Assembly: GCA_021234155.1 (NCBI GenBank)
Contig: JAJEKV010000022.1
Location: 4,547,852 to 4,611,851 of the forward strand
Direction of reading: 5' to 3'
Source of the DNA: Isoetes taiwanensis
Taxonomy: Eukaryota > Streptophyta > Lycopodiopsida > Isoetales > Isoetaceae
DNA length: 64,000 nucleotides
Under the pieces are notes generated by a model. It did no database searches. It was not told where the DNA came from and saw only the letters and a list, made by a program, of their open reading frames with translations. Each line of letters opens with the position of its first letter. The stretch's first letter is position 1. Made by a program: the position numbers and the translations under genes. Of the stretch, positions 17,201 through 62,000 are shown in pieces.

Positions 17201-17279
17201 TTTGAAATGAGCTTGTTCCGATCTTTTGGGGGTGTAGGCTTCTTATTGCCAATGTAAAGTTTTCCAAAAGATCCTTTTT

Positions 17280-17533: not shown

Positions 17534-17559
17534 AAAACCCCCTCGAAGATTCGCTTAAA

Positions 17560-25085: not shown

Positions 25086-25156
25086 TATTCCATGTAACAC
25101 AAGTTACTTCAACTACTTCAATTACTTAACACCTATTTTTGCATAACGTGGGCACC

Positions 25157-30466: not shown

Positions 30467-32069
30467 TGTTGGCGGGCCAACCTACCCCAAGCCCGACAGA
30501 GTTCTTAGGCAATGGATGACAAAATAATAATAATGAATGACAAAAAAAAATATAATTCCGTTAATTACTTACGCCAACACCACCACAACTAGGCTCATAG
30601 CTTCCGTTATACCCCTTAAGCCTAGCCTACCGGCTTCCTTTTACTCCTTGCATTAATTATTATGTGAGTGCAAACTTGTAATATTTATTATCCTTGATTT
30701 GTTTTAGCATCACATGGTCTTAGAGTAATGTTCTCCTTGTATTTTAATTTTATCTTTTTTTTTATGTATAGGAAATTACAAGGTTTAACTTATTACTTAT
30801 GGAATTGTTGGACTTATAAAATTGTTAGGTTTAGTTAAACACTTAGGTTTTCACGCTTGAACATTTATTTAGGGCAAAACACAGAACCCTGTCGAGAAGG
30901 CAGTGACCATGCACAAATCCGCTTCCTCCTCTTCAATCGATTCGACTCTCACTTTCTACGCTATGGCCCACGATCAAATCGGCCATTTCCCCTCCTTCCT
31001 CCGGTTTCTTCTTTCTTCTCAAGTTGAGCCTTCACTGTGCTTGGTTTTTACGCAAAATTAACAGCTAATTCTTGGGCTCCAAGGTAAGCAATCGGATCTG
31101 GCTTAGGGTATGGCAATACAGATGGAGAAGGCGGCTATTGGGTTATGGCAGAAGATCTGGGTTGTTTGCAGGCTGTATCTTCCAAGCATGGGCAGTGTTA
31201 TGGCAAAGAACCAAACCGTCCGGACTTGGGCAAAAAGAGCTAAGAAGTTCTTTCCTTATTTATGATTTACTATAAGAATTGTAGATTCAGCAACCAACAT
31301 GACTGATTTGACTCAATAAAATTTCGATTTCTTCATGACATTAGAAACAGAGCAGCACTGTTAAGATGATTTTCTTTCTCTTTTATCTCTGATTTTTTAT
31401 TCATTCCATTTAGATTCTTATTATAACTTAATACTCTTACAGATTCAAGACAGATACAAGATAAGATGCACTGTGATTCACAAAGGATTTCCTTGAGGTA
31501 AATCTTTGTGAAAAACTGATGGCAATACATTCTGCATTAGTTTATTTAATTTAGATTTCATCACCACACTCACACACAAAAGAAATTATTCATTCACACA
31601 AAATAGCATCATCATAAACTAGAAAGGAAGACATCATGCACACGCAATGATGGACCAGAATCATACCAGGACGCTCAGGCAATCAGCAGAGAGCAGACTC
31701 GAATAGGCACAAAAAGGGTAGTTTTTTCATTCACGTTGAATTTCTCTTATACAATTCCAATAAAATCGGACCTTTAAAAAATACAATCTTTGCCCTCCAT
31801 GTGGAAAACTTCCTTTTAGCTCCAAGATTTTGACACCTCATCAATCCAAAAATATGGTCTCCTCCAATCAAACTGCTTTGTGCTTTCTCCTTACCACTAA
31901 AATTCGAATTTCTAATGGTCTTCAATAATATAAGCATCAAAATCTTCAAAATAACCTTGTAACTATGCACTTTGGTGGAGTTACACACAGCCCATACGTC
32001 TTCATTGCAGCTTCTTTTCACCTTTGTTTCACTCAAAATCAAAATTTCTGTTGTGTTGACCGCTCCACA
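30467..32069 (-). repeat. 3' LTR of the Gypsy element
   Basis: Downstream LTR for the reverse-strand element. Immediately upstream on that strand (32,070-32,085) is a purine-rich tract AAGTAAGGGGGATAA, the probable polypurine tract. A similar tract lies at about 32,906-32,920. Open frames inside the LTR recur in both copies but are too short and unconserved in type to call. Confidence 0.85.
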
Positions 32070-36851: not shown

Positions 36852-39060
36852 TTATCCCCCTTCATTTATCACATGTGCTTCATTTTCTTCTTCTCTGAGT
36901 CTTCTTGCCCCACGAGTCTCCACAACATAACTTGGGATATTAACTTCGTCCACATACACAACTCGACTATCTACCACCACTTCCTTTCCCTTATTATTAG
37001 AAGATGGTTCCCCTCTTGCCTTTAATTTGTGAGGACAATTTTCTTGGCTATGTAGGCCTTGGGTTTGGCAGATCCCGCATATGGGTTGATATCCAACTTG
37101 TCTCATAGGATTAGGACAATGAGGTGCTATATGACCTATCTCTCCACATCTATAACATTGGGGTGGAGGCCTCTTCATAACTCTAGGACGATTTTGCCTT
37201 TCCTCCACGTTGGTAGCATAAGCTGTAGGATAAAAGGGTTGTGCTTGATAAGTAGGGGTAGGGGTATTAGGGTTAGCTTCCATTCTCCAAAAATAGCATC
37301 TTTCTGTAGGGTGATTAGTTTTACCACACTTTTTGCAAGGAATTGGTATGTTTGCAGGAGTAGGACACTCAGATGGTAAATGGCCATAACCCTTGCATTT
37401 CACACACCACATGTTAGTCCTCTCATTGTTTACTTGTGGGTTTATTACTCACACCTCTTACCCAATTCAATTGCATCTCGTTCATTTTATTAGTAAGAGT
37501 CTCTACCACCTTTTCTAACTTTTATCAACCCCTTCCTCTATGGTTGGCTTTGTTATTGGGGCACCACTCCCAATGTGGCTAGCCTACTATAATCTATGGT
37601 ACCCAAGTCACTAGGCGTGACACCCAACATTCCCAAGTGAGGGCTTGCTAAAGGGGGTTCTAGAGGGTTCTTTGAGGGCTACCCCACCCAACACGTAAGG
37701 CATAATCAACCCGATTATAATGGTTTGGCCATAGTTAGCTTGGCTTGTTCCCAAAAATAGCCGCAATCTTGATGGCACTTTCTAAATCACCGGGTTTGAC
37801 CCTTAGTGAAAAAGCCCAAATCCGTGGTAACCCATTTGTAAAGTATCTTACTTGATCCTCAACTCAGGGGGTGGGCTCTTTTTTGCTACCAACCGCCTAA
37901 ACCTCAAAGACATAGCTCAAGCACATAGACTTTCATTAGGGCGCTAGTTTAAATATGTTAGCTCATCATTTATTCTTTCTTGAAGGCCAATAGGCCTAAA
38001 GGCCTTTAAAAAATGCTTTTCTAAGGTCATCCCAAGTCAAAAAAAGGGGTAATAAGAGGTTCTATACCATTCCATTGCCCCATCCTCTAAGGGTAAAAGC
38101 ATGTTAGGGTGTCCCTTTAAAAAGCGTTTTATTATTTAGTGACTAAAAAGGTACCTAAAAAGGTAGCTTTGGATCTGGTAAAATGGTACCATGTGATAAT
38201 ATCTCAATATAAGGTATGTTTTAGAACTTTTTATATATATATTGGTCCCAAAAGAGATTATCTTTATCTTAACTTTGAATATTACCAATGCCCTTGACTT
38301 TTTATTTTGGATTTTTGTATTAGTTTTAATGAAAAGAAAAATGAGAAAGTACCTTTCTTGAGTACCTAGTGTATGTACTTTTAAGCCATCCCAAAAGTGG
38401 TACACCCTAACATGCTTTTACCCCTAAGGTTGCTCCAAATGAAGTCTTTTCAAAGATTACCATCTTCTTGATTGGCCTCACTAAAGGTGATTGAATGTGA
38501 GAATCAGCCTCCCCCTTTTAAAGGTGAAAAGGTTGGGTATTTCATTTTAGAAGTTTTAGTTGCCATGGGATTAAGAATCGGTATTAGAAGGAGTTAAATA
38601 ACTGGTTTCCTCTTCACTACTTTCCCCTGTGGCTAGAGGGTATGGTGCTACCGCTACTAAACCCTTTGCTCTACTAAATGCCTTTTCTTCTTCCAAGACT
38701 TGCTCTTTTAATTCCCTTCTTTTTTTGTTCCCTAAACTCTAGTCTAGCACTACGCTCAGCCTCTTTGGTTCTCGATGCTCTTCTTTCTCCTTTCAAAGAT
38801 CCAGCCCCAATTCATGCAAAAACTTTAATTATTGAACAAATAACTTTTTTTTTTTTTTTTTTTTTTTTTTACGTGAGGTGGATGCCCCCCCTTGGCTTAC
38901 AAATTCTTCAAATGAAGATTGCCTAAGTCTTCTTACAAATTCTTCTGTTCCCAACCATCCAGAATTGGTCGTGGTTCCTCCCATGGTCCACCGTCTCCCC
39001 AACCACTATTAGGTTGAATTCTCTTAACGAGGATTATTTAAAATAAGTATTTTGTGCTTA
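36852..39060 (-). pseudogene. gag: Gypsy gag, interrupted by a MITE
   Basis: The downstream part (36,852-37,412) has four zinc-knuckle-like motifs in a row: CVKCKGYGHLPSEC, CKKCGKTNHPTERC, CYRCGEIGHIAPHC and CGICQTQGLHSQENC, followed by a Lys/Glu-rich tail. These bind genomic RNA during packaging. The upstream part (about 37,440-38,460) reads in pieces like a retrotransposon gag capsid domain, with a DGAMEWY-type motif beside the MITE insertion at 38,091-38,424. Several frameshifts occur between 37,420 and 38,090. The start codon is not resolved. Four knuckles is more than the one or two usual in Gypsy gags. Confidence 0.7.
38091..38424. mobile_element. 334-bp Tourist-like MITE inside gag
   Basis: Left end GGGTAAAAGCATGTTAGGGT and GT, right end ACACCCTAACATGCTTTTAC and CCC, a 21-22-bp inverted repeat with one homopolymer difference. 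TAA lies on both sides (38,088-38,090 and 38,425-38,427). A TAA duplication and G-rich ends fit PIF/Harbinger Tourist-type MITEs. The reverse-strand coding frame of gag reads on across the site when only one TAA is counted, so the insertion is precise. Confidence 0.9.
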
Positions 39061-39266: not shown

Positions 39267-40870
39267 TGTTGGCCGGGTCAACCTACCCCAAGCCCGACAG
39301 AGTTCTTAGGCAATGGATGACAAAATAATAATACGAATGACAGCAAAAAATATAATTCCGTTAATTACTTACGCCAACACCACCACAACTAGGCTCATAG
39401 CTTCCGTTATACCCCTTAAGCCTAGCCGCACCGCTTCCTTTTACTCCTTGCATTAATTATTATGTGAGTGCAAACTTGTAATATTTATTATCCTTGATTT
39501 GTTTTAGCATCACATGGTCTTAGAGTAATGTTCTCCTTGTATTTTAATTTTATCTTTTTCTTTTATGTATAGGGAAATTAAAAGGTTTAACTTATTACTT
39601 ATGAAATTGTTGGAACTTATAAAATTGTTAGGTTTAGTTAAACACTTAGGTTTTCACGTTGAACATTTATTTAGGGCAAAAACCTGTAACCTGTTCGAGA
39701 AGGGGCAGCGGCCATGCACAAATCCGGCTTCCTCCTCTTCAATCGATTCGACTCCTCACTTTCTCTGCTATGGCCTGATCAAATCGGCCATTTCCCTCCT
39801 TCCTCTGCTCGGTTTTTTTCTTCTCAGGTTGAGCCTTCACCAGGTAACGGTTTCTGCAAAATTAACAGCTAATTCTTGGGCTCCAAGGTAAGCAATCGGA
39901 TCTGGCTTAGGGTATGGCAATACAGATGGAGAAGGCGGCTATTGGGTTATGGCAGAAGATCTGGGTTGTTTGCAGGCTGTATCTTCCAAGCATGGGCAGT
40001 GTTATGGCAAAGAACCAAAGAATCCGGACCGGGCAAAAGAGCTAAGAAGTTCTTTCCTTATTTATGATTTACTATAAGAATTGTAGATTCAAAGAACCAA
40101 CATGACTGATTTGACTCAATAAAATTTCGGGATTTCTTCATGACATTAGAAACGGAGCAAAGATCTTGTTAAGATGATTTTCTTTCTTTTTTCTCTCGAT
40201 TTTTTATTCATTCCATTTAGATTCTTATTATAACTTAATACTCTTACTGATTCAAGACGATATAAAGATAAGATGCACTGATTCACAAAGGATTTCCTTC
40301 TGTGGTAAATCTTTGTGAAAACCGGATGGCAATACATTCTTACAGAGTTTATTTAATTTAGATTTCATCACCACACTCACACACAAAAAGAAATTATTCA
40401 TTCACACAAAATAGCATCATCATAAACTAGAAAGGAAGACATCATGCACACGCAATGATGGACCAGAATCATACCAGGACGCTCAGGCAATCAGCAGAGA
40501 GCAGACTCGAATAGGCACAAAAAGGGTAGTTTTTCATTCACGCTTGAATTTCTCTTATACAATTCCAATAAAATCTGACCTTTAAAAATACAATCTTTGC
40601 CCTCCATGTGGAAAACTTCCTTTAGCTCCAAGATTTTGACACCTCATCAATCCAAAAATATGGTCTCCTCCAATCAAACTGCTTTGTGCTTTCTCCTTAC
40701 CACTAAAATTCGAATTTCTAATGGTCTTCAATAATATAAGCATCAAAATCTTCAAAATAACCTTGTAACTATGCACTTTGGTCGATTTTGAGCCCATACG
40801 CCTTCATTGCGGCTTCTTTTCACACCTGCTTCACCTCAAAAATCAAAATTTCGCTGGTTGACCGCCCCAC
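39267..40870 (-). repeat. 5' LTR of the Gypsy element
   Basis: This is the upstream LTR for the reverse-strand element. It matches 30,467-32,069 throughout. The adjoining inside sequence on the reverse strand, TTTAGTGGGGGGCATTGCG, sits where the primer-binding site should be. It is loosely like the tRNA-Asp type (TGGCGCCGTTGCCGG) but not a good match, so the primer is uncertain. Confidence 0.85.
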
Positions 40871-41465
40871 GCATCACATGCCAAGGTGGCTCAAACATGC
40901 CACATGGTTACAACATGCCACCTAGGCTCCAATAACATGCCAATGTGGCTCCAACATGCCACCTAGGCTCAAACATGTCAAGGTGGCTCAAACATGCCAT
41001 CGAGGCCCCAACATGCCAAGGTGGCTCAAACATGCCACGGGCTCCAACATGCCACCTAGGGCTCCAACATGCCACCTAGGCCCCAACATGCCAAGGTGGC
41101 TCAAACATGCCAAGGTGGCTCCAACATGCCAATGGGGCTCCAACATGCCAAGGTGGCTCAAACATGCCACGTAGGGCTCCAACATGCCAAGGTGGCTCAA
41201 ACATGCCACGGGGCTCCAACATGCCAAGGTGGCTCCAACATGCCACCTAGGCTCGAACACGCCAAGGTGGCTCAAACATGCCACACAAAGCTCACCTAGG
41301 CTCCAACATGTCAAGTCGGGTTCACCCACCTGGCCCAACGCGCCATCTAGGCTCCAACATGTTAAGCAGTGGCTCAAACATGCCACCTAGGGTCAAAATG
41401 CCAAGGTGGTTCCAACATGCCATCTAGTGGTTACATGCCACCTAGGGTTAGCACGCCACCCAGGC
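40871..41465. repeat. 19-bp minisatellite, forward orientation, right of Gypsy
   Basis: About 30 units in the same orientation as locus 1 (CCAAGGTGGCTCAAACATG), opposite to the stretch on the left side of the Gypsy element. Confidence 0.9.
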
Positions 41466-43266: not shown

Positions 43267-44267
43267 TTTAATCTTAACCATTAATTCAATTGTTTTGGAC
43301 CTTTACCATTGAATGTTTTAATCTAACGTTGAAATTTAGATTGCAATCTATTATTATGCGTGAATGAGAATCTAGATAACATTGTATATTATGCCTTATG
43401 GACTTTTTTGGGTTCGATTCCCAAAAAGGTTTTCCTTTTTTAAAATAAAAAGAGCAATATAAAGTTCATAATATATTAGCTTTTAAATTGTGGTCTATAG
43501 GAATTTTTTATTTAATGTCCGGGCATGACGCGTCAACATTTGATTTGTTAGAAGACATATTAAAAACAATACTTTGTTTTTCCTACGTGTGATAATAATG
43601 CTTTTTTTATTTCAAAAGTATGCCACGTGTCCATATTTGATTAGCAAGAATAATGTTTTTATTTTTTTTTAAATATGCCACGTGTTAATATCTCATTAGT
43701 TAAACAACCACATTAGAAACACATATTTTTCTAATGTAATAATTTTATTTTTTCAGAGATGTCCTTATTTTAGGAAAACTATAGCTAGATTTCAATAACA
43801 CATGTAGGGTTTTGTAAATTAAAAAAGGCCATAATGCGATTTTTTTTTTAATTTTGCAAAAACAACACTTGAAACAACATGTCCACATCGCGAAAAAGAA
43901 CACTTGAAAACATCAATTTTCTATTTCCTATGTGTTTTTTTTCTTTGTAGTGTTTTATTTCTACTGTTGTAATTTAGTTTTTCAGGTGTAGTAAAATTAA
44001 AACCTACACGCATATTTTAAAGATAAACAACGATGGTTCCTACCAAAAACAAAAGTTGAAGGAAAAAAGTACACGCTGACAAAAATTCACAAAAACCATG
44101 TCAATTTTTTTCTACGCTGATTTTTCCGCCAAGAGACCACCGCCTCTTTTGTGCAAATCCGATAAACAGCCACGTGGACTTTTGGGGCCATTTTGGTGTT
44201 GTTTTTGGCATAAAACAACACTTCCGCATAACTAAAAACAACTCAGGACCAAAAAATTGGGGGCAGG
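43267..44267. other. AT-rich DNA with degenerate ~75-bp repeats, no gene
   Basis: 43,525-43,700 carries three degenerate copies of a unit with the words CACGTGT, ATTTGATTAG and AATAATG followed by a T run. No coding features occur up to the border of segment B. Confidence 0.5.
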
Positions 44268-44269
44268 AC

Positions 44270-44544
44270 ACACACACAAGATCCCAAGAAGGAGATGGAC
44301 AAGGCCATGAGCAACCTCCATGCTATATCATTGTATGAGGGTACATAATATTGAGAAGTTTGAAAAACTTTCAACTAGTGGTTTGTAAAATTTATGAGGA
44401 AAACAAGTAACCCAATTCTATGTGTGTCATGTGTAATTCTATTCAAGCAATCAATTCAGAAATTTCTTTTTTGGTGGTGTGAGTCCCATTTTCAAATCGA
44501 GTCCCAAAATTCAAGATTTGTCCCACTTTAATTAAATACGACTT
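44270..44544 (+). mobile_element. 3' remnant of the large transposon, copy B
   Basis: About 275 bp matching 13,226-13,493, ending with the same inverted repeat (AATTAAATACGACTT at 44,544). The rest of the element is absent, so this copy is cut at an ACACAC run. Confidence 0.75.
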
Positions 44545-45265
44545 TTGTATTATTTGGCAGGAGTGTTAGAATCCTTTAATATTGACAAAGGTTTAGATGG
44601 AGGTTTAGCTACAAGATAGGTATCCCTTAATGTACATCATCTCCCATCTGATATTCCCTAAGTTTTCTTTATTTATAGTATCAACATCTTCCTCACCGTT
44701 AAATACCCCCGATGAACTCAAAACATATTGTTTATGGAGTTATCAAACAAACATTTCTTAGAACTATTTTGAAAGGGGACTTGCCCCGAAAGTTGAGCAT
44801 CTTCCTCCACGCCTTGAGAATTGAGATGATCTCGACTCGTGCTTTGAGGAGCTTCCTTGTTGATTTGAGAAGTCTGTCTGTCAGGTGTATCCAAAACTAT
44901 ATCCTTCTCTGTCATAATTTCTGTAGCTTGATCTAGAGCAGCCTGATCTTGGTCTTGTACTATAAGACTTTGTTCTGAGCTTGTGCACAGTATACCTTCT
45001 TGTAGAGTAGCCATTTCCTTCTCAATATCAGTAGAAATGGTTTGGCAGCCATAATTCACAGAAGACAGATTTATTTCCAAATCAATGAGGGGTTCAAGCT
45101 GGATTAAAGTGTTTGAGGGAGAGGGTTGAGACAAAAGGTCTGCAGGTGTATTGGATGAGGGATGAACATGAAGATCAATCAACTGCTCATAATTTTCAGA
45201 ATTCAACAATTAATTAGAATCATGGTTAGTATTAAGATCTGCAAGTATCTGGAAATGGTTGTAGC

Positions 45266-45736: not shown

Positions 45737-46877
45737 GGTTGTAGCAGAGGACCTTTGTTTTCCATTTCGCATTTATCTATCTCCAAAACGCTCCTCGTTA
45801 ATCCTTGTGTCCATGTCTCTATCCGGTTTGAGGTTGGAATTATTGAATTCTTCTGTTTTGATGCAATTATCAATGAGGTTGAATTTTCCTTGTCTCCTTT
45901 ATATTTTTGAAGTTTGAGGTATGGCTTTGTTCAATTAATGAATCTCCCCACGCCTTTGATTGAGATTCAAAGAATTTGACAATCCTAGAATTATTTAGGT
46001 TTTTGGCATCCTAATAATTGCCTAGTGTGGAATGCGCATCCTCCTCGCTGATCTTGCATCCCCGATCCATAGGAGCTTTGCCTTTATGATTGAAATCTAT
46101 TTCTGAATAACTTTAATTCCAAAGGCATTTTTATTTGCATTTACTCCTGTTAAAGAACTTCTGTTTGATGTCGAGTCAGAAATATGAAAGCCCTGAGCAT
46201 TCTTTTGTTTATCCTTTTCAATTCTGTTCTTGTGGATTCTCCTTTGAGATCCATTCACTCTTTTCCAAGCGAAAGCATTGGTATTGCTTGGATCTTCCAG
46301 TGTAGTTGGCCCTTGAAGAACTTGTGAACTGATATTTTTATGTGCCATATTTTCTGCTGTATTTTTTATCTTATTTGCCTCATTTGATTCCTTTGAGGGA
46401 ATTGTACTCACTGTGACATCTGCTTGCTTGATGGGAGTTGTCTTACAATTTTCATACCAAAAGTGCCTGTAATCACATGTCTGGCAATGAGGAGGCAGAC
46501 CTGACCATCTTAGTGATAGGATTGATTTCTGTCCAAAAGCATCAGAGAAGGGAATGGAAGTGGGAACAGGTTTGGTAAGATCAATTTGAATGAAAGCTCG
46601 GGGAGGTCTCTCAGGGGAATATTCTGTAGAAATATATGTGCCAATGGAGTTGAATAGAATTCTGAAACAATCTTCATTCCAATAAATTGGATTGAGCCCA
46701 TGTAAAGTGGTTGATGCAATGCACAAGGACTCAAATGAAGATGTATCTAGCCTAGGATGCCATTTAAGAAAGCATATTTGAAAACTTTCAAAAGCCAGAT
46801 GACCACGGTTTAGTAAGAAGTTTGCTGTTCTGGAGTTATCACATTCAATCATAATAAATGGATAGTTTAGCCAGTAC

Positions 46878-47376
46878 GGGTTTATTTTTAATAGTGGTGT
46901 ACAAAAATGCGAAATTTCAGCACGTCTTCGACACCTTACTTTTTTTGTGCAAGCTTGTTTGACGGGCTCAACGGGCATAATGAAGTCTGGCGACGACCAT
47001 TATGACACTCCAGCGATTGGCATTTTGAGACTTAAAGCACGATCGAAGCACCAAGAATCGCAGATCATTAAGATCGGTGTACTTCCAAAATTCGTCAGTG
47101 ATCAACCTGGTCTGGTGAAATGAGCATTATGACGTTCAAACGATGAGCATTTTGAAATTCGAAGCAGGATTGAAGCACCAAAAAATCACAGAATGACGGC
47201 ATAGCCGCACTTCCGAAAATCGTTAGTGATAAACGCAAATCCGAGGGCCATCATTTTTTGATGGGTGATGAAAATCTCTGACGTGCTGTTGAAGTTCAAC
47301 TTGAAGGGCTATCAGCACTTTATCAGCACCTTATGTCGCGACGTGCTAAATTGTACACCACTATTAAAATAGACCC
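46878..47376. mobile_element. MITE-like insertion in ORF1, copy B
   Basis: The counterpart of 15,381-15,878: left end GGGTTTATTTTTAATAGTGG, right end CCACTATTAAAATAGACCC, left flank GTAC. Confidence 0.75.
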
Positions 47377-48999
47377 GCATATGGCTTTGATGAGAATGCC
47401 TTTCAAGGTTTTGGGCGTAAGGTCCAAAGTTTTTCAAGATTGATTCCACATTTATTAACCTTGACTAGAAATGTAAATGGTTCATCGAGTTGACATCTTA
47501 GCATGAAACGTATGGAGATTTAAAGAAATACCATGGTACAAAGCTTGTTTGTTCCCTTCATCATCTCTGCCTCCAAAGAAAGCAAAGATCCAAGGCATTG
47601 TCACTATAGACATCTCTCGATGTGTTTCAAACCCATATGGCATGTGAATTTGAGTAGAAGGATGCGTAAATGGGAGTCAAACCATAAAGATCGAATCCTT
47701 TGACAAAGTTATCCCAAACAGAACCTTCCGAAGTTCTAGGATGCATGATCCGATTATCGAGAGAAGGTTAGAGAAATCTCCAAAAATCGACAATTTTTGG
47801 GTTTTCTTGAAAAGTCTTAACCGGTGAAGCAAAATCGGCCGCCAGAGTCTCCTAGTTGAGCAAAATCGCGGAGAGAAAAGCAAGGAATTTAGGGCTAAAA
47901 TTGTCTTTAATATCCATGAAAAAGGCTCAGAGTTTATAGCAGAGACACGGAGAAGAATGGAAAAAGAGGAGGGAAAAAATAATTCAAGAAGGTGGAAGAA
48001 AGAAACTAAAAAGGGAAAGCTAAATGGATCTAAATCAATTCTATCAATGGAGAGATCAAAGAAAACCGGCCTCATTGTCCAAATTCTCACATCATTGTAT
48101 AATTTAACCGGCAATTTTGTGTCTCATTCAAATACAATTTACTTCGAAAAATAGCAGAGGCCTCCAAGTTTTTGTTCCCAATGAATTCTTCTAACCAAGA
48201 TTGATGATTTCAACTTCAATTCTTCATGTACCGCAAGAAAATGAGTATTCAATGGAAATTTTCTTCTAGGAACAGCTTTTGTGTGACCAAAGATTGCCAA
48301 AGTTGAGAAGCAGATCCTCTTAAATGGCCACAAGTTAATTCTACTTGCCTTGGAGGATTACAAAGAAATTTGTATCCATCCTGATGGTGAATTGGCAGAA
48401 ATTCATGTGGCGAAGAATCCTGATTGCTAGCCTCTACATGGCTAGCAAGGATTTTGGATTGAATTGATGCTAGAGAAGCACATTTTTTCAAAAAACATGC
48501 AAGAAAGGGATGCAAACCTAAAAATTCACTAGAGGACAAAAAAAAATCCAAGAAAATAGGCACTGAAAGCATTTTCCAGCCCTTAGCCTTCTCGCGGCTC
48601 AAGCTTTGCCTTGAAGCCATGCTAAAAAAGGACTCAGGGGGTCAATTCCAAAAAGGTATTTGTCCAAAATAATTCAGATTTGTGGAACACTTAAAAGGAT
48701 CTATTTTGAAATGAGCTTGTTCCGATCTTTTGGGGTGTAGGCTTTATTGCCAATGTAAAGTTTTCCAAAAGATCCTTTTGTTTCTTCAAAAAGTTACAAT
48801 TGAGGTTATTGTATTTTGATCCCGACCAAGACCTTGACTTACTCTCATCCCCGGATCAAGACCTTGACTATTCTTGAAGTTCGTTTTTATATAAATTTTG
48901 AAAAACTTTTGCTAAGTTTGCCTATATACATAACTCTATTATATTCTGATTTGCCTATATCTCTAGGCAAATAATTATATTGTATGTTTTTCCTAATTA

Positions 49000-50332
49000 A
49001 TGAAAAAAATCATCTCTGCATCTTCAAAAAAAAAAAACCCCTCAAGATTCGCTTTAAATTTCACCTAAGAGTCTTATTCCTCGAGATGCTAAACATCGAT
49101 GACTTTCAAGGAATAGAATCTTAGACCATAAGAATTAGATGGACATCTTTAAGATCAAGACTTTAAGTCTAAATCTAGGCTGCAATTATGGCACGCTTTT
49201 TTAATTAGCAACACCAAAGGAACAAGAGTCAAGTTCGACATCAACCTTAAGCTTGAGTTAAAGTAGAGCATCGCACCAAATCGTGTACCTCTGGCAAGTA
49301 TGACCTCATAATAGGCATGGAATATTAAAGCCGGCTAAGGCAATAATTGATTATCATAAGCAAGATGTTTATCCCCGACCAAAGGGCAAGTACCTTATAA
49401 TTAAAGTAAGGAAGTAATTTTGTTAAGTCTGCCCTAGGATCTTAGACGATAAGAATTATACATTGTTAAGTTTGCCCTAGGTTACCTGTGTAAGCTCAAA
49501 CCTTCTCAAATGATGTCATTTCAAATGGGCCATGCTGCCATTTGAGGTGGCCTTGTGACGAGGTTGAGTGGGCTCGTGATTGTGTAAATGGATTGTAGAT
49601 GGTATTATTATAAAAAGCTAGATAAATGAACAATTTGGAGATGATCATTGCCAAACCATGACTGCGTAAGGTTTTATTTCAGTGGTGGGGATATTGCAAA
49701 TCTCTTATTATGAAGGCCATCCAGATGTCCTTACATAATGGAAATTGCATAGCCTCCATTTAATTTAACATGGCCATTTTTCATTTGGCCTTTGTAGACC
49801 ATTTTCTATACATCAGTGCATGAAAATAATGCATCACGATATTTATATTTTTAACGCATTGGTAAATGGAATTTGTGCTACTTGACCCCTATTCTAGGTA
49901 TAGTATTATTTCTAGACCAACGCCAATTGCCTGTGCCAACTGAATAGCTTGCTTTGAGAATAATTGAGAAAATCAATAACATCATCATCATGATGGAAAG
50001 TCCGTATCCAACTTATTGTACCTCTTAAGCTGCTTATCAAAGGTTAAAGGCATATTCAGCAACACAAAGTTCCAAAATGACCATTGATCACTTATATTAT
50101 GCCGAAACCTGCTTAGTCTTGAACTCTACATATACCTTTTAGCATTGAAATTATCGGGTGAGTAATCAGTAAGGATATGAACATCTGTTGTTGTACTATA
50201 TCATCTAAGATTGCGTGCTTCGTATACAATCCCAATCAATAGATCTTTCACTAGCAGCATGTCAAATTTCATCCACCAATTTGACTCTTTCTTTTAAACT
50301 TGTCAGTACCTATTAAGAACATAGTAGAAAAC
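49000..50332 (+). other. LINE tail, Gypsy protease scrap and unannotated DNA, copy B
   Basis: Counterpart of 17,500-18,842: poly(A) at 49,026-49,037, protease-like words around 49,230-49,400, then the uninterrupted site GTAGAAAACGAGC at about 50,326 that shows where the 4.1 kb element inserted in copy A. Confidence 0.5.
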
Positions 50333-51717
50333 GAGCTTTTCAATTTATCTAGTTAATCAAGAACAAAGATAATATTCATACTCGTACTGTCCAATAGTAA
50401 GTGAACTAATGTGCATCACGAACAAAGGGAAAGGGATCCTTTTCATTCGAGACTTTTCCTTTAAAAGAAGTGTCTCAAAAGACAGCTGATGTTTGATTTG
50501 GTATGCATATAGCATAGTCTTCTACTCTGTGGTTTGGTCATAATTCTCTACTCTGTGTGCCATGGTTCTTGAGAGAATAAACAATTATTCTGGGTTTTTA
50601 TTAGGGCATATAAAATTAAAGAAAAATGAATATTCCCAGGGGCCAACCAATGATGGGGAATATTAGAGGTGGCCACATGCAATCTTTAGGGCCCTTCCCT
50701 CCATATATGAATCGATGAGGGGATACGAGAGAGGGGAAGATCCGGCAGAACAAATCATGAAGAGAAGAAAACTGATGATCAGACTAAAAGTTTGGGTGCC
50801 TCCCCTATCCGATTGGAACATTGAAAGTTGGCCTCCAACATGAACCGGAGGTCTCCACCTCCATTTTTGGACGAAACTCCTTCCATTGAAACCGGAAAAC
50901 TGACATGTGGCCACCCTTATTTTCCCCTAAAGAATCGGATGTTTCAAGTTTCCAACTGAAAAGTTGTATCCTCCATATTGAAAAATATATGAGAATCTTA
51001 GAACAAATTTCCATGCACTAACTGAATGGAAAAACCTCCCATCCCAAAGTTCTTCCAACAGTGGAGCCAACTGAGATTTATAGTGGAACCCAAAGATAAA
51101 AAACAAATGTTATTTTGTATTCTGTATATCATTTTGTGGGACCTTAGTGGATTAGAGAAATATCTGGCACGCACGTGTCGAAACATAAAGCTCCATCCAG
51201 CAAGTGGATTATGTAGTATAAAGGGCAGCAGATCTCAACGTAGAATGCACATCTCAAAATGGAAATGGAACCCAGCGTCTTCTTATTAAAGGAGGTTTGG
51301 CTATAGTGCCCGGGTCGCCGGAGTATGAAATCCGCACTGGGGCCTCAAATTTCCTTCCTAATCTTACTAATCCACATGGAAATAATTCTTTCTAGTTGCT
51401 ACTGCACTTTGGCGCAGAATTTTGCTCCTTTTTTTTGCATAGAATAGTGTATTTCAAATGGGAATTGACCATGGCCTCACAAACCATCGGCGGTAGCCAC
51501 AAAATTGATCGCTTATTTCTCGAGGCAAACTTAATAGTGCCATGCATATTTTCTAAGATAAGTTCTCGGGCGTTCTTCAGACCGGTGGACTGCGACTTTT
51601 TCGTGGCACGTGCCATAGCTATAGCTTCGCGATTTTATCCCCGCTCTGACTAGACCAAAGTATAAATGAGGCTAGCAAATAGCCGCCTTCATTCACGATT
51701 GAATAGATCCTTGATGG
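50333..51717 (+). promoter_or_regulatory. Duplicated block with TATA box upstream of the HUH gene
   Basis: Counterpart of 22,932-24,336. TATAAATGAGG at 51,661 is a good core TATA box, about 440 bp before the first plausible ATG (52,105) of the HUH gene on the same strand. A second TATAAAG-like word lies at about 51,219. Whether it drives that gene is inference from position. Confidence 0.4.
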
Positions 51718-52104
51718 GATCCTTTTTCCTATTATAGCTTAGCTCAAATCCTAGCTATAGAGATGTAGAACTTCAAGCAGAAGCGTCTTCTTGACTGAGG
51801 CGTACATTCATCTAAGATCAAGAACTTTTTTACCAGGAGAAGGAAAGATTTGAAAATCGAGGGGGAAGTAGGTTTCCCAATGAATGAAACCGAGAGTTTT
51901 TTTGGTTTTTTGGGGTTGAAACTTTAAGGGCCGTTGGATTTGGTTTTTGTGGACAATGGTCTGTTGTTGACGGCATGATTTGGGAGCAACGAAATTGCAA
52001 GTGACACTTTCCTCGCGACAGGGACGCTTATGCTGAGTAGGTGTTGATCTCGTGCCCCGCCGTATTCGGGCCGGTAGGCTCTTGCCTAGCAGGAATTCGG
52101 CCCG

Positions 52105-53748
52105 ATGGGCTACGCTTGGCATGGATTGAGCGATTTTGTTGGAACCAGGTTCTACTTGAAGATGCATGGATGCAAGGCCATAGTTCTTGTCTGTTTTCTG
52201 CGGAATGGCATGCCGAGCAACCAAGGGTCTAGCGAAGGTGACAGAGGTATATTTCAGTCTGTGTCAATGCTGAAAAAACTTGCTAGAGGTGTTAGGTCTG
52301 GGCAGGGCATGCATGAGTGTGTGGATGAGGAGGGTCGACCTCCTGAGAGCAAAGAAATACCGAGCCGCAAGGCCTGTGGGCGATGAATCTGGCCCCCCAA
52401 TGATTTCGAGCCTTGAGTCACATCGGGTTTTCCATCGTAGTGCCTTTGTAGAGGTCCCTTCGAGATGTCGCAAATGCCACTAGAGAGAGCTCAAGGCAAC
52501 CTCGAGCATTCTCAATGTCCGTGGAGGGTTTTGTGCCAACAAGGAAGAGAGGCAGTGCCATTTAAAGAATGTTGGAGTCGTAATTCATAAACAGAATGAA
52601 AGAGATGATCTTAAGAAGAGCAGACAGTTGCAAAAGGAGGAGAGCAAGAAGGTGAAACAGATGGAGAAAGAGAGGAGACAGAGGGAGAAGATGGAGGAAC
52701 AAAAGAAGGTGAAGAGGTAGAAAGAGGAGAGGAAATGCATACAAAAGAAAGAGAAGGAGATGAAGAAGAATTCAGAGAAGGATGGGAAAAGCAATGTGCT
52801 CGATGTCAAAGATGACCGCGGGATGAAGTAGGAACCGACATACTTGAAGAACACTATTTGAGAGCTTGCAAATTTTTAGATTCGGATTGTTTGGCTGGCA
52901 TGGTGGCAGTGGAGCGTGGCTCCGAGGTTGATCATCTCCACTTGCAATGTGTGTTTCGAGTTCCTTCAACCACGCCTGCAGTTGTGAATGTCCGATTGAG
53001 GCAAGCTCTTGATTGGACGAACCACCATCCACCTGGTGATGTCATTCTGTGCAAGGCCTTGAAGGATACTCGTTTGCATTGCTTCAAGGGGATGCCTTGA
53101 TACATGAAAAGATGCGTAAACTTCATTATAGAAATCATATGAAATAGGTCTCCCCCGAGCAACTTCCCCGTGGGCAAGATTCTCAGACGCTTTAAAACGG
53201 AGTCGAGATCAAGCACGCGGTGGTGGTGCCGATAACAGAACTTGCTTGGTCGGGCCGCCATTTTGTCATATATCATGGAGATGGTAAAGGACTCCCACCT
53301 ATACTACACAATCGCCAATGTCGCGAACTAGAAAATTCACCCTTTCTAGTGCCTCGGTTCTCCTTGGAATTCCGCCGACCGCTTATCACAAAGTAGAGGC
53401 AAATTTGAGGCTAACCTTGGATCCACATCATGCCTCCATCAAGGATATGCGCCGCTGCGGATTTATATGGGCTGCGCCAGGAAGGAGCCAGAGAGAAAGT
53501 GGGAAAAAGGCCATAGGTACCGAGACGATGCCTTGGCTTGTGCGTAATTAGATAGACTTGATGCCATGTCGAGGAGGAAGCAAGCGTGATGTATGAAGAC
53601 AAGGATGCAGTAGACATTGTTGATTATCCAGGGGATGAAGAGTACCACGAGGAAACGCCTGCTTTCATGCCTCCTATACATGGCAGCCATCTGCCCTTTG
53701 AAGACTATATCCCTTTAAATATTATAGACCACGGTTTTGACATTGGAT
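52105..53748 (+). CDS. HUH-endonuclease (replitron/Rep-like) transposase, frame-broken
   Basis: Three frames give one protein of about 470-540 residues. First comes a cysteine cluster (RCRKCH, then GGFCANKEERQCHLKN, 52,460-52,570) like a zinc ribbon. A Lys/Glu-rich coiled coil follows (52,575-52,830; QLQKEESKKVKQMEKERRQ). The core begins LEEHYLRACKFLDSDCLAG, then VAVERGSEVDHLHLQCVFRV. HLHLQ (52,933-52,947) is the HUH metal-binding motif. Next are GDVILCKALKDTRLHCFKGM, then a stop, then YMKR (53,101), fitting the tyrosine motif Y-x-x-K/R. In the next frame follow HYRNHMK, VSPEQLPRGQD and an acidic tail (VDIVDYPGDEEYHEE, ending 53,748). From memory this order (ERG..HLHLQ..LK...LH.F.GM.GY..K) is that of replitron-type or oomycete Rep-like proteins, which nick and join single-stranded DNA. 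The stop before YMKR and the frameshift after it may be sequencing errors. Helitrons are excluded by the missing helicase. Confidence 0.55.
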
Positions 53749-53797
53749 AATACGAGTTCTTCAGCTGCCCTTATGTTGTTATGTTTCATGTAATTGA

Positions 53798-54247
53798 TTG
53801 CTTGAATTTTGTGTTGCAGGCTCCCATGTTGAAGGCCCAGCCAGTGAAGGTAACATAGATGCCTCTCCTCCGCCTCCATTCTCTACGTTTATTCCCTTAG
53901 ATGCAGAATCCGAGGAGAGGGACTGTGTTGAAGACTGTGCTGCTGCAATCGATGGTGCTTACTTCGATGTTGAATGGATGAAGACACAAACTTGGAGGAT
54001 GGTGCATAGCCTATCTGTTAACTTGAGTAATGCGATGGATATCCTGGAGGAAGCCTTGACTGCTATTGATGATCCCCATGGAGTTGTTCCAATGCGAGAT
54101 AAAAGAGTCTTTAGGGCTGAAGTAAACCATGTACGAGCCATGCATGCGGCAGCTCCAGCAGCTAACTGCCGCTCATCCAAACACCATGCAAGCATAATGG
54201 CTTGTTCCAGTGGCTGGGTGTGCAGATCCTTTATTGTATGTATATAA
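53798..54247 (+). CDS. Unrecognised 140-residue product, possible downstream exon
   Basis: An open frame with a clear 3' splice-site look before it (GAATTTTGTGTTGCAG ends at 53,819), so the coding part may start at 53,820 rather than at an ATG. It contains a Pro run (SPPPPFSTF), an acidic patch (DAESEERDCVEDC) and helix-like stretches (LSNAMDILEEALTAIDD). I do not recognise a family. It follows the HUH gene on the same strand by 70 bp and could be its 3' exon, a captured host exon or chance. Confidence 0.35.
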   Translation: MLEFCVAGSHVEGPASEGNIDASPPPPFSTFIPLDAESEERDCVEDCAAAIDGAYFDVEWMKTQTWRMVHSLSVNLSNAMDILEEALTAIDDPHGVVPMRDKRVFRAEVNHVRAMHAAAPAANCRSSKHHASIMACSSGWVCRSFIVCI

Positions 54248-54419
54248 ACTTGTAGTTTTCATGTTTGTCTTCCATTTGGACGTTGCTGTTTTGGCTCTAA
54301 ATGCGAATTGTCATTGGCATCTGTAATACTTTATGCTCACGTTTCTGTTTCTGTGTTGTGCACAAACTTGTGGTATATATTCAATGTTCATATTGCTGTT
54401 TTGATCACAAGTTTCTGTT

Positions 54420-54602
54420 CTTTTGGTTGTAATCTGGCACTAATGCCAGTTGTAATATGGCGCTAATGCCACTTGTGCCTGGCTAATGCCACATGTACAA
54501 ACCACATTGTTTATGAATTGGCAATGATCATTTATGAATTGGCAATGATCCACATTGTTTATGAATTAGCAATGATCATTTATGAATTGGCAATGATCAT
54601 TA
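54420..54602. repeat. Short tandem repeats (TGGCACTAATGCCA and TTTATGAATTGGCAATGATCA)
   Basis: First about four copies of a GGCNCTAATGCCA palindromic word, then about five copies of a 20-21-bp unit TTTATGAATTGGCAATGATC. Confidence 0.8.
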
Positions 54603-55245
54603 GCATAGAAGGCTGGGATTTTTTTTTTTAATTTGCAAAGGAACCGATTAACATGGAGGGACCGATAAAATGGACTAGAGTGATAGAATTGAAGAAGGGT
54701 TTTAAAGATTTTCTGGATTTGGGCGCTAAAACAGTGCCAAAAAGGATTTTTTAGTTTGAAAATGGCCGTAATGGAACAAAGCATGGAGGTTATGGCAATT
54801 ATGGCACTTCACAAAGCTTTGAGAAATGTGCGCATCAATTCCGAATGGACATATTCGATTTTTGGACAATCAAGCCGAGGTCAGGAGTATATAGATCTCT
54901 CTTCTTTTTTTTATTTTTTTTTAAAGAATATAGATCTTTCTTCATTTTTTGTTTCTTTCCAAATCTGACCAATCCATGGCGCCAAATTTTGCAAAAGATT
55001 TAAAAGGTAGAATAGGATAATAGGATGCAAGGCTAGAGACTGAGACGACGAACATCACCATAAATGCATCTCGCTTTAAAATTTTTTAGCACGTGTCAAC
55101 CCTTATCTACTCGGCACAAAAAAAAAATAGCATCACAGAATTAATAGAATCAAACAAAATTTTATGTGCATTAATACGTTGTGACAAGATAAAGACAGGG
55201 GGCGTGCAATAAGGTTCAAAAATACAAATACTTAGAACTCCCAAC
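54603..55245. other. No recognisable gene
   Basis: AT-rich, with a short direct duplication ATATAGATCTYTCTTC near 54,890 and 54,928. Nothing else is seen. Confidence 0.5.
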
Positions 55246-55430
55246 TAGGAACATATAGAATTAGAACTTAGAACATATAGAATTAGAACTTTTGTTAAAT
55301 TCCAATTCAATCCACTCAAGAGCTCCTTCTAATCCACTAGGAACATATAGAATTAGAACTTAGAACATATAGAATTAGAACTTTTGTTAAATTCCAATTC
55401 AATCCACTCAAGAGCTCCTTCTAATCCACT
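55246..55430. repeat. 91-bp perfect tandem duplication
   Basis: CTAGGAACATATAGAATTAG to CTCCTTCTAATCCACT occurs twice head-to-tail. Each unit has an internal short duplication GAACATATAGAATTAGAACT. It lies just past the 3' end of the ferritin gene. Confidence 0.9.
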
Positions 55431-55469
55431 ATAGCCTCCTAGAGTTAAATTCTAATCTACTCTGGACTC

Positions 55470-58092
55470 CTATACTACAGATAACACCTTCAGAAGCTCC
55501 TTGTCCCAATTCCAAACTCCTACACAAAAGTAGCACAAATTATCGAAATAACCACCACAATAATAATTGTGTAACAGAAGGAAATGAACCCACCATGTCC
55601 AATACCAACAAGACGAAGTTGAGCTACATACTCCATGTTGTTTGAGTAATCTCACCTAAGAAAAAAACAAAACGGAAAACCACAAGAGTAAATGCCCCAA
55701 ATACGCAATTCAAATCCAACTTACACAAATCTAAATTGAGCCTCCCAAGAAACATTTGCACCCTCCAAAATCATGGCATCCAAGTTCCTACTCAACTCTA
55801 ATTCTAGTGACCCACAAAGAAACAGATAAAACACTTCTAACATTCTAAAGCTCCTAAATTGACAAATTTTAAAGCTCTTGGCACGCTAATTACATGTGGT
55901 TGTAAAAATGTTGAGATAAATAGAGAGTCATATCATTGTCCCCAGCTTCCTCGGCAACCTACACATGATCAATTAACTACTTCATTACTTACTATCTTTA
56001 CGAACCCAACTCAAGTTGCAATATAAACTTTTGAGATCGCATACGCTAACCTTTGTTAAAGCCAAGTATCTCTCCAATTGCAGTTTCTCCATAGCCAGAG
56101 TCAATTCCATGGCTAGAAAATATAACATGTAATATTAAAAAAACCAAAATTAAATAAATAGCTTTGACGCAACACATACCATACAGGGCATCCCCTTTCT
56201 GCTCATGATTATATTCACTCATAGGCTCATGAATCCTCTTCAAATCAATGCTTCCACCTCTTTTTGCCTATGAGGATCACAAAAAATAACTTAAATTCTA
56301 AAAAACATCATTACATAAAAACAAATAAAGCTGTTGAGGATGATCTTGCACCTCTTGGTGTGGATCGATGATGTGGCATGCCCTTTGGGCTGAATGGTCA
56401 TCTCTCCAAGAGACACATCTCCATGATCAGACACACCTCTTCATAATCCATCCTATAAATGTATAAGCCAAGGTCAGGGGCTATTCCATCCTCGATCAAT
56501 ATATGCTTCCGCCATTCATTTTGTGAGATGAGATCCAGAGCCCGTGTCGTGATTCGGCAAATTCTGTGCTTAGAAGGATGGAGGACGCCAAGATCGAGGT
56601 CGGGCAATGAGGAGGACGAGTCTCCTCGATCAGTGAAGGAAAGTGGCCTATTCTATTTACATTCACATTCCAATCCATCTAAAGAAGACCCAGATGCCCG
56701 CATGCATTCGGATATACCTGCTTCTTTGGTGAGATGCATCTTGTGCTTGTGGTAGTATTTAGATGCCGCGGAAGAATTTAAAAACAGGAAGAGACAACCC
56801 CAAGCGCACATTCAAGATGCATGCTAGAGACTTTCGATTTGTTGCTCAAGACTCCATCCCTCAGAGATACGGTCCAAACCAATTGGTCCGGGGAAGAACC
56901 CACATAGTGGTTTTGTTGCGGTATTAGCGTAAGACTGCACCGCAATTTGAGGGGAGTTGTTCAAGATCTTGTTCTACGCCCTGATGCCGATCAAAGGGGA
57001 GTGTTGAGAATGATTCACATCCTCTCAAGTGGAGGGCGCCGATCAAGAGTCACCAGCGAGCATGGCGATTGTTTGGATGATTCACCCAAAACATCCACAC
57101 CTTTCATATATTCCTTATATATTTGTGCTGGGTTGGGGCCCGGCCCACTCAGTTTTTCTCTCATCATCAATATGTATTGATGATGAGAGATGATGAGAAA
57201 AAAACCGGGTTGACAGGCCCCAACCCGTGAACAAAACATATAAGGAATATATGAAGAGGTGTGACTGCTTTGGGTGGATCGATCCAGCCCAAACGCCATC
57301 AGAATCGCTTGGTGACTTTTGGATCGCCTCCACTTGTATGGTGAGGATGAGATCATTTTCAACAAAAGCTACCATGGAATAGACCTTACAAAGGTAATTA
57401 GAAAGAGATAAACGATCAGCCCCTCTCCTCCGCATTCACGAAGTTTTATAAAATCTTAACAAAAAACAGTTAAAACATATGTCAATTCCCTAAGTAAAAA
57501 TACAGACCTCAAATGACTGATTCAAAATTCAAAGTATTAACATACTTCACCAATCCTGGCAACGCCACACAGTCTCGATCAAAGTAATGAACAAGGGACT
57601 GAAAGGTATAAGCCATATTATAGGCCACACTGTGCAGAAAACAGGGCAAATGAGCAAGTAGAACAGAGTATCAGACAAAAACCAAGAAAAAGAACAAAAA
57701 AATGGCAGATTATGCGAAAGAAAATCAAGATTTAGGTTAGGCCGATCTTACTTGATAGCATTGGTAAGCTCCTTTTCACATTTCTGAGTGAAGAAATGGC
57801 GACTAAGGCACTTATCAACACGGTGCTCTGCAGGGCAGAGTTCGTCGAGGCCGGCCTTGAGTGCCAAAGCGGCTGCATCGTAGATTGTTTCCTCCCCTTC
57901 GAGGACCGAGGGGGCAATTTTCCTCTGAGCCCGACCTCTGCTGATCCGGCGTCGCCATAGCTTTCTTTGCAAATCGCCATAGCTTCTCCGGGGCTTAAAA
58001 GAAGCGCCATAGCCCACGTCTTCCGTCCACGCGCCGTTCTCTCTTCCCATGCACACTGGCGGATAACGGGTGGCAATCGGAACTAAAAACAA
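55470..58092 (-). CDS. Ferritin, eight exons, divergent ferroxidase centre
   Basis: Exons on the reverse strand, each with GT/AG borders except as noted: 58,092-57,752; 57,629-57,546; 57,455-57,385; 56,267-56,180; 56,112-56,051; 55,958-55,894; 55,655-55,594; 55,519-55,470. The product reads through ferritin landmarks: CEKELTNAINVAYN, HYFDRDCVALPGLVK, KRGGSIDLKRIHEPMSEYNH, KGDALYAMELTLAMEKL, EYVAQLRLVGIGHG, VWNWDKELL and a stop at 55,470. Eight exons is the plant ferritin layout, and exon 1 would carry the plastid transit peptide; its frame there is uncertain, since another frame offers MALLLSPGEAMAICKESY. Ferritin stores iron in a 24-subunit shell. Odd points: the ferroxidase Glu of INVEYN is Ala, the nearby Tyr is Phe, and the EERxH helix-B patch is broken. 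In-frame TGA codons occur in exons 3 and 7. The start and the exon 3 end are the weakest calls. Confidence 0.8.
56268..57001. other. Ferritin intron 3, left part, with probable retroelement remnant
   Basis: No ferritin exon is seen here. The stretch up to the purine tract at 56,992 may be internal sequence of the element that owns the left LTR arm, but no RT or integrase motif is visible. Confidence 0.4.
57002..57364. mobile_element. Inverted LTR pair (fold-back) in ferritin intron 3
   Basis: The left arm starts TGTTGAGAATGATTCACATC at 57,002, directly after a purine tract CAAAGGGGAG like the polypurine tract before a 3' LTR. The right arm ends GATCATTTTCAACA at 57,364. The arms (~175 bp each) are inverted copies, e.g. 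CATATATTCCTTATATAT against ACATATAAGGAATATATG, with the centre near 57,175. So two partial LTRs meet head-to-head or tail-to-tail inside intron 3. No target-site duplication was found. Confidence 0.75.
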
Positions 58093-59429: not shown

Positions 59430-62000
59430 AAAAGCATATGTCCGAGCCAAGTCACAAGAAAAAGCGTTCTTAATGTTTACATAAAACTTGCTACCTTAGC
59501 AAATGTTAACTCATCAATGGCTACGTTCTTAATAAGGGGCTGCAATCAGATGTCATACTTGGGAATAGGCTCCTTAATATGTATGGCAAGGACAAAGATC
59601 CAGAGGCTGCACATAAAGTATTCAATATGTTGTACTTGATTGCTTGGTCAGCAATAATCTCTATTTATGCTCAAGATGGGCACGACAAACATGCTTTACA
59701 ACTTATTCAACAAATGAAGTTTGAAGGCATTGAGCCAAATAGCATTACTTTCAGCAGTATTCTTGATGCATGTAGAACTTCGAAAGTCCTTGTTGAAGGT
59801 AAATTCGTCCATGCTTGTGCCTTAACAGGTCCACATGTATTTGATGTTGTCTTGGAAAATGCTCTTGTCAATATGTATAGTAAGTGTGGAAGTTTAGAAG
59901 ACGCTGAAAGAATATTTGTTAGCATGCATCAATTACATATTATATCTTGGGCCTCTATAATTGGATCTTATGCCGATCATGAATATAGAGAGGAATCCAT
60001 TCAAGTCTATCAGCAGATGCATCTTGGAGGCTTTAACCCTAATAAAATCACAATTATCAATGTCGTAAGTGCTTATGATTGTGTATTTTTGACAAAAGGA
60101 AGGAAGGAAGGAAGGAAGTTTATTTTAACGTCCACGGAGGCCAGAGGCCTATGAGACGATACATGCAGAGAATAGGCAAAAAAGCCAAAAACCCCAACAC
60201 CAAAAACAAACAATGTAACTGTACAGTAGAACCCTACTACCGGGATGAAAAAACCCCCACTTGGGAGGAAAAATCCTAACAGTAGGCTCTCAAATACCAT
60301 GCCCCAGAAGAGCAAGTCTGACGGCCGAAATCTGCAGGATGTAAGCTCCCAGTCGCGCTACCAGAGGTGATGCGAGTAACTGATGTAGCGGCGTGTCAGA
60401 GCATCTAAGATCAATGGGCACTGCTCGGACATGGGCATATGCTGGGCACCGCTGGAGGGCATGGTGCTCATCCTCTATCACGTGCATCTCACAACACTGA
60501 CATATCCTCTCCTCCCTGGGGATCCCGTGCCCGCCATTCACCCCCCAGCGAAACAATGGTTCATGCTGAGTGCATCAAAATTAAGTTGGAGATGGACGTT
60601 GTTTTGGGAACTGCATTTGTTAGCATGTATGGTAAATGTGAGGACCTTGGGCTGGCATGCAAGGTACTTAGTGCGATGGAAAGCAGGAACATAGATAATG
60701 GTTGCGCATGCCAGATGTCGTTATAATAAAGAGTGCATCAAGCTCCTCCGAAAAATGCAAGAGGAAGGAATTAAGCCAAATAAGGATACATATTTTAGCA
60801 CTATTACTGCATTCGGGGAGCTTTCTTAGTTGGGACAGGGAATGAATACATACGGGAAATCTGGTGATGTAGATTCTGCATGGGAAGTATTTAATGAAAT
60901 TGAAGAAATGCACATAGTTTCTTGCAATTCTTTGATTTCTGTATGTTCTCAGGGAGGTTATAAGGAACAAATAATATGTTTATTCCAACAAATGATGAGG
61001 AAAGGACCAAAACCAAATAATATTATGTATATTACAATCCTCGCTACATATGCTAATGATACACATCTAGCAACAGGAAAGAAAAAATCCATGCCCATTT
61101 GTTGGAAGGTGGATTGCCTTATGATATTGTATTAGAAAATGCACTTTTACACATGTACAGCGAATGTGGAAGCTTTGAAGATGTGCACAAAGTGTTCAAC
61201 CAAATGCAGGAAAGGAATATTATATCATGGTCAACTATGATTGCAGCACATATAGAGCATGGTTATGGAAAAGAGGCATTTGGCATTTATCAACAAATGC
61301 AGTTAGTAAAGGAGAGTTCAAACACCATTATCTACATAGTTCTTCTCAACGATTGTGCCAGATTCAGTTTTTTAATAGAAAGCAAATTAATTCATGCACA
61401 TGCTATATAGTATGGGTTTGAATCGGCAACTATCGTTGGGAATGTCCTCATCAATATGTCTGGGAAGACTGATAATCTGGATGATGCATCTGAGATTTTC
61501 AACCGGATGGATGAGTAAGATGTCATATCCTGGAATACAATTATTGCAACGTATTCCCAGTATGGTTTTTTCAAAGAGGCCTACTATCTTTTTCAACAGA
61601 TGCAGTTGCATGGCTTCAAACCAGATGATGCCATGTTCATCAACATTCTAAATGCATACACTAGCAGAGCCGTAGCGAGGCTTTTGCATATCCAGATTGA
61701 TATGAATGGTTTCAATGGTAATTTAACATTAGAAACTGCCCTTGTCAACACTTACGGTAAGTGTAGAAGCTATGATGATGCAAGGATTATTTTTTGATAG
61801 GCTCCAATATAAAAGTCTGGTAACATGGAATGCAATGATTGCAGTGTCTGCACATCATGGTTATGGAGGTGAAGCACTTCAACTCTCTTGCCAGATGTAA
61901 CTTCAAGGTCTCAACCGAAATGATATCACTTTAGTAAGCATTTTAACTGCCTGCAGTCATGCAGGGTCTGTCCATGTAGATTAATGCTGGAGGCTCCATA
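59430..62000 (+). pseudogene. PPR protein gene (PLS type), broken by a LINE and frameshifts
   Basis: At least eight PPR-like units can be read. Examples are AWSAIISIYAQDGHDKHALQ, PNSITFSSILDACRTSKVL, ENALVNMYSKCGSLEDAERI, SWASIIGSYADHEYREESI, DVVLGTAFVSMYGKCEDLG, ENALLHMYSECGSFEDVHKV, SWSTMIAAHIEHGYGKEAF, SWNTIIATYSQYGFFKEAYY, LETALVNTYGKCRSYDDARI and WNAMIAVSAHHGYGGEALQ. Such proteins bind organellar RNA, often for C-to-U editing. The last readable word is DITLVSILTACSHAGSVHV near 61,970; no E or DYW domain follows in the window. A LINE fragment (60,104-60,553) splits it and several stops occur in frame, some possibly errors. No convincing start or targeting peptide was located. Confidence 0.75.
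60104..60553 (-). mobile_element. 5'-truncated LINE 3' end inside the PPR gene
   Basis: A reverse-strand frame (60,290-60,556) has REERICQCCEMHVIEDEHHA, then LQRCPAYAHVR, the zinc-binding C-terminal motif (zf-RVT type, CX2C..H..C) found after reverse transcriptase in plant LINEs. A short 3' UTR follows, ending in a (CTTC)n tail at 60,095-60,118. PPR coding sequence resumes directly on the right (MVHAECIKIKLEMDVVLG). A clear target-site duplication was not found. Confidence 0.8.

Follow-up and report, generated by a model that had tools for sequence, protein, structure and literature searches.

The window, that is, the whole 64,000-nucleotide stretch of Isoetes taiwanensis DNA that we analysed, carries the remains of an HUH nuclease gene enclosed by transposon ends. 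The locus is almost certainly a decayed Replitron, one of the HUH DNA transposons that lack a helicase, and the following features were recognised in it.

~51,868 to 54,671, plus strand: whole element, decayed, almost certainly a Replitron; 5' limit set by the shared start of independent copies
51,868 to 51,882, plus strand: 5' terminal word GTAGGTTTCCCAATG, with an A directly before it; shared start of copies
52,210 to 53,748, plus strand: remains of exon 1, in 13 collinear blocks relative to the protein of relative L004, with 11 frame changes and 4 in-frame stops
~52,560 to 52,815, plus strand: charged, coiled-coil-like stretch, downstream of an AT-hook-like word in relatives
52,816 to 53,100, plus strand: HUH nuclease core, still in one frame (Pfam PF21859, E 1.6e-5, 25.7 bits against a cut-off of 28.5)
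52,933 to 52,941, plus strand: His-Leu-His of the HUH motif, from an alignment of 11 sequences
53,101 to 53,103, plus strand: codon of the conserved tyrosine, with a stop codon directly before it in the window's reading
53,820 to 54,197, plus strand: remains of a putative exon 2, by protein likeness to exon 2 of L012; one frame change near 54,143, exon limits provisional
54,630 to 54,671, plus strand: 3' terminal region, a T-rich stretch followed by two GACCGAT-like units

Replitrons were reportedly described recently, by Craig in PNAS in 2023, and they are thought to move as single-stranded DNA. A sequence-only reading of the region had placed an HUH nuclease gene at 52,105-53,748, and a gene of this kind does lie there, its frame 52,816-53,100 matching Pfam PF21859 (Replitron_HUH); the extent given was too short, however, as the element spans ~51,868-54,671 (~2.8 kb) and its second exon runs to 54,197. 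The 3' limit was set by likeness to the relatives' GACCGATTAGG, which is altered in the window, and may be off by several bases. The profile search that had been proposed as a check of that reading returned Replitron_HUH, albeit under the curated threshold. The claim of a plant gene for an HUH-nuclease transposon, with no helicase found, is supported, as one of the Replitron kind, by the Pfam matches in the window and in its relatives, while the suggestion of an undescribed system is not, the element being a Replitron and hence of a known kind.

The frame at 52,816-53,100 reads ERGSEVDHLHLQCVF and includes HLHLQ in the context that the sequence-only reading had quoted. This HUH motif is in frame in the window, and its His-Leu-His is conserved among relatives: when the window was aligned with 10 relatives, the first His was found in 11/11 sequences and the second in 10/11, with L019 carrying Gln there. 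The proposed tyrosine word YMKR, in contrast, came from an out-of-frame reading. The conserved tyrosine is instead encoded at 53,101-53,103, as the counterpart of the Tyr in the relatives' GMLGYCLKD, and the Tyr of GYCxKD is kept in all 10 aligned relatives that reach this position. Replitron_HUH scored above the cut-off in 4/4 exon-1 proteins of relatives (E 8.1e-18 to 7.6e-20), with the match covering 127/128 model positions. Structure prediction from the single sequence gave a model of low quality (mean pLDDT 54.5), and a search of solved structures gave one match at E 0.8. The protein had a single match in PHROGs (E 0.39), and when viral contigs were scanned with the protein alignment, 71 stretches fitted a pattern and 0 were confirmed as relatives.

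In relatives, an N-terminal region precedes the HUH domain, which is followed by a C-terminal region and then the second exon, ending in HPxTMxA in L012 and L026. Four exon-1 and two exon-2 frames of relatives were scanned against Pfam. Replitron_C (PF21860) was found below the cut-off in two of the four exon-1 proteins (E 0.0067 and 0.064), with no match in the other two. No helicase model was detected by Pfam in seven plus-strand window frames, three minus-strand frames over the element or these six exon proteins, so the absence of a helicase that had been read from the window holds for the frames and proteins scanned.

The charged coiled coil noted upstream of the core is real, although it is confined to one of the two N-terminal types that we saw. 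An AT-hook-like RGRPR[K/R] followed by a Lys/Glu-rich stretch is present in the four relatives of the window's family that cover the place (L004, L011, L012 and L021); Pfam AT_hook reached E 0.059 in L012, below the cut-off. Five relatives with AAGGTT-type ends (L014, L017, L019, L020 and L026) have a different N-terminus with neither the AT-hook-like word nor the Lys/Glu-rich stretch, and the words EGRP and FHxSxFVE occur in L017, L019 and L026 as well as in the window-family group. The zinc ribbon or cysteine cluster claimed for the N-terminus did not withstand comparison: its ...SRCRKCH derives from the frame 52,274-52,483, which is out of frame relative to the relatives' protein, and no CxxC or CxxxC pair was found in the two exon-1 proteins (L004, L011) or the exon-2 protein (L012) tested. 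Where the window gave the cysteine cluster and YMKR, a sister contig reads VEVPSEMLQLPLERAQCNL and GYCLKDAGKLHYRNHMK.

This sister contig, C256, has the same insertion and both flanks in common with the window. A single frame can be followed through 465 codons of it, interrupted by four in-frame stops, and two of the window's in-frame stops lie at the same places in it. Identity between the two is patchy over 17 blocks of 500 bases (window 48,500-57,000): three blocks reach 85.7-90.4% and have 15-24 gap openings, and four reach 99.8-100% without a gap. Because C256 keeps one frame and the identity is patchy, assembly error may account for much of the additional frame damage in the window. The patchiness probably reflects real decay to which uncorrected long-read error has been added, with real patchy divergence or gene conversion as a possible alternative reading. 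A third contig, C479, has the window's 5' flank (90.5% identity) and therefore the same insertion. Since C256 and C479 carry the insertion together with flanking DNA, the element was duplicated along with its surroundings.

The window also contains large internal duplications that are 92-97% identical: 14,214-18,842 with 45,737-50,332, 13,212-14,222 with 44,265-45,265, 22,932-24,338 with 50,329-51,717, and 30,467-32,068 with 39,267-40,870. The stretch immediately left of the Replitron is part of one of them. Blocks of many related direct repeats (~75-90% identical) occupy 24,578-28,938 and 40,873-41,447, and further frames encode a zinc knuckle (zf-CCHC; 36,852-37,448, minus strand), DUF4283 (46,097-46,999, minus strand) and PPR repeats (59,510-60,154, plus strand).

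We searched the genome (1,658,258,908 bases in 1110 contigs) for other copies, as the sequence-only reading had advised together with an alignment of their ends; at least 150 copies were found and common ends were defined. With the window's 94-residue stretch, at least 151 matches were obtained at E <= 0.001 (150 of 2371 first-look candidates scored), and the Pfam family search gave at least 150 matches over the cut-off (150 of 2165 candidates scored); these copy counts are lower bounds. The 151 matches, combined with the Pfam E-value of the window's core, place the HUH match beyond chance. Some relatives have long open frames, for example of 523 and 495 aa. I. taiwanensis is a vascular plant with very many Replitrons, of which the window copy is itself an ordinary decayed member. 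Among the 151 listed matches, we counted by eye at least four same-strand and at least three opposite-strand neighbours within 5 kb, compared with ~0.07 neighbour pairs expected for random positions. At one locus (L021, C1078:19252500-19260000), two copies in opposite orientation are 97% identical over ~1.67 kb. In another copy (L025), a MITE-like insertion of ~320 bases, with GGGTAAAAGCATGTTAGGGTG at one end and the reverse complement of this at the other, lies at 3,471-3,792 in the second-exon frame.

In independent copies of the window's subfamily, likeness begins at GTAGGTT[T/C][C/T]CC (window 51,868) and stops near GACCGATTAGG, after which a few variable bases follow. The ends thus carry direct repeats, GTAGG at the 5' side and TTAGG at the 3' side; sister subfamilies have TAAGGTTCCC or AAGGTTTGC as terminal repeats, and a unit on contig C930 has AAGGTTCCCAAAA at both ends. 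No inverted repeat of the ends was seen by inspection. When end regions were taken from 20 copies, the 5' terminus was located by exact pattern in 14 and in none of the other six. Together with the window, 10 further loci of its subfamily and three loci from the TAAGGTTCCC subfamily, these 14 gave 28 rows with 25 distinct contexts, the five insertions of the AAGGTTTGC group being left out of this count. The base before the 5' terminus was A in 25/25 distinct contexts, although no more than 24 insertions stand behind them, since the window and its C479 counterpart are one insertion with different contexts.

Empty sites were sought with the joined flanks of nine insertions (40 of 1882 candidates scored), which yielded spanning empty sites for three of the nine (L027, L028 and L032). 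At L027 the target is TTGA^GTAG, with GTAG at both junctions, giving a duplication of 0 or 4 bp, while the target at L032 is GTGA^ATAAG, with a 2-bp duplication. Seven empty sites of L028 read ACGCA^TTAG; taken together with the related insertion on C460, they give a 5-bp duplication, ACGCA, L028 being without 11 bp on its 3' side. A second search covered seven insertions, with L015 common to both searches; the 40 candidates scored, out of 1860, were taken up by matches to the L025 flanks, and L025 was resolved as GGGCAC^ATGAAGG, with a duplication of 0-1 bp. In all four resolved sites the A belongs to the target; the insertion point is followed by T in two of them and by G or A in the other two. 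A 24-bp target duplication considered at L032 was rejected, as the empty site on C578 already has the two tandem units.

To look for longer duplications, we took 24 copies whose 5' flank is defined and sought the end of each flank in the copy's own 3' region. Exact long duplications were present in 3/24, measuring 15 bp (L015), 20 bp (dC1053) and 25 bp (the second L014 copy). The longest match among 552 mismatched control pairs was 9 bp, barring one of 44 bp that arises by construction, the second L014 copy having its 5' flank within the 3' region of the first. The remaining 21 copies had at most 8 bp, inside the control range, and the 3' end is uncertain in several of them; no convincing 3' end was found in dC919, dC1096, dC976 or dC1019. 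A fixed GTAG-like target word, first suggested because GTAG (L027), TTAG (L028) and ATAAG (L032) stand after the insertion point, was also rejected: CAAAATG, ATGCATG and TTATTCT follow it in the copies with long flank duplications.

At the 3' side, seven copies (L027, L032, L025, c13, c15, c23 and dC1053) have two or three short units in tandem that end in GAT[T/A]AGG or something close to it, and c14 and L028 have one such unit each. On C930, C1035 and C919, copies are arranged head to tail in arrays whose unit is about as long as the element. The C930 region holds five HUH matches in 17.5 kb, and three of its junctions read ...ATAAGGTATGTGAT-AAGGTTCCCAAAAG; one unit further on, a 13-base copy of the 5' end is followed by other sequence. 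In c20 the 3' word passes straight into another 5' end, and at the C919 junction both sides are truncated. The L014 pair is separated by ~50 bp of flank-like sequence rather than by a shared repeat.

Several points count against a Replitron identity, namely the window match under the Pfam cut-off, the weak or absent Replitron_C and duplications unlike a fixed 2-8 bp. The weak or absent Replitron_C match, the AT-hook and coiled-coil N-terminus and flank duplications reaching 25 bp could instead mark a separate HUH transposon family close to the described Replitrons. We consider this improbable: Replitron_HUH lies above the cut-off over 127/128 positions in relatives, and the size, direct terminal repeats and occurrence in lycophytes fit the review of the group (PMC10741241). 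A domesticated host gene derived from a Replitron is barely credible given the in-frame stops (two of which the sister contig shares), the transposon ends on both sides and the high-copy family.

A Helitron, or a fragment of one, is likewise very improbable. Helitrons encode an HUH Rep protein with a helicase, have an A before the 5' end and insert between A and T. They are numerous in this genome (at least 150 matches over the cut-off for Helitron_like_N, with 150 of 1813 candidates scored), and the A before the 5' end is as expected of them. Against this, the core matches Replitron_HUH, no Helitron or helicase Pfam model was found in the window frames scanned or the six exon proteins, the base after the insertion is T in only two of the four resolved sites, and some copies have flank duplications. 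In its main text, the genome paper of I. taiwanensis (PMC8566536) never uses the word "Helitron".

For the element as a Replitron, the HUH domain, single conserved tyrosine, terminal repeats, arrays and A-adjacent insertion points lead us to propose a transposition mechanism that, taken as a whole, we regard as fairly probable. Relatives encode one two-exon protein, with a single conserved tyrosine in its HUH domain, and this protein would recognise the short direct terminal repeats (GTAGG/TTAGG, or TAAGGTTCCC or AAGGTTTGC in sister subfamilies). We infer a nick in one strand, between the 5' terminal word and the A that flanks it, with the protein remaining attached via the tyrosine; replication would then displace the strand as far as the second repeat. 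The single strand would be joined to the target next to an A, where repair of unevenly spaced nicks by the host could leave a flank duplication of zero or variable length. Head-to-tail arrays may result from read-through or reuse of the 3' repeat.

A broader reading is that these lycophyte Replitrons insert by a single A without a fixed stagger (duplications of none to 25 bp), multiply the 3' terminal word and form head-to-tail arrays, all of which would be traces of a eukaryotic rolling-circle cycle that runs without a helicase and leaves the second target nick for the host to make; we put this forward tentatively and with considerable doubt. If it is true and algal Replitrons differ, it would represent a distinct insertion mode. 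Replitrons look little studied in the literature that we searched, and the large set described here, in which many copies have long open frames, ends can be read and both arrays and empty sites are present, is good material for studying how a eukaryotic helicase-less HUH transposon moves.

Among known systems, the bacterial IS200/IS605 and IS91 elements, compared here by their general description, have helicase-less HUH transposases that act on one strand; the likeness lies in this helicase-less HUH type and the difference in their bacterial hosts. Helitrons are alike as eukaryotic HUH transposons with an A before the 5' end, whereas the present elements have a different HUH model, no helicase that we could find, and flank duplications in some copies. 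The comparison with Replitrons rests on a review (PMC10741241) and on Pfam PF21859 and PF21860. Relative to the 2-8 bp target duplications given in the review, we found 2 bp (L032), 5 bp (L028 with C460), 0 or 4 bp (L027), 0-1 bp (L025) and 15, 20 or 25 bp in 3/24 copies; Replitron_C is below the cut-off or absent here. What may be new in these elements is the variable length of the flank duplications, along with the small repeats at the 3' end. In other respects the elements resemble Replitrons, in the HUH domain, in the lack of a detected helicase, in a length of ~2.8 kb that fits the 0.9-4 kb of the review, in short direct terminal repeats (GTAGG/TTAGG fits its 5-11 bp) with no terminal inverted repeat seen, as in its account, and in their host, since the review lists Replitrons in lycophytes.
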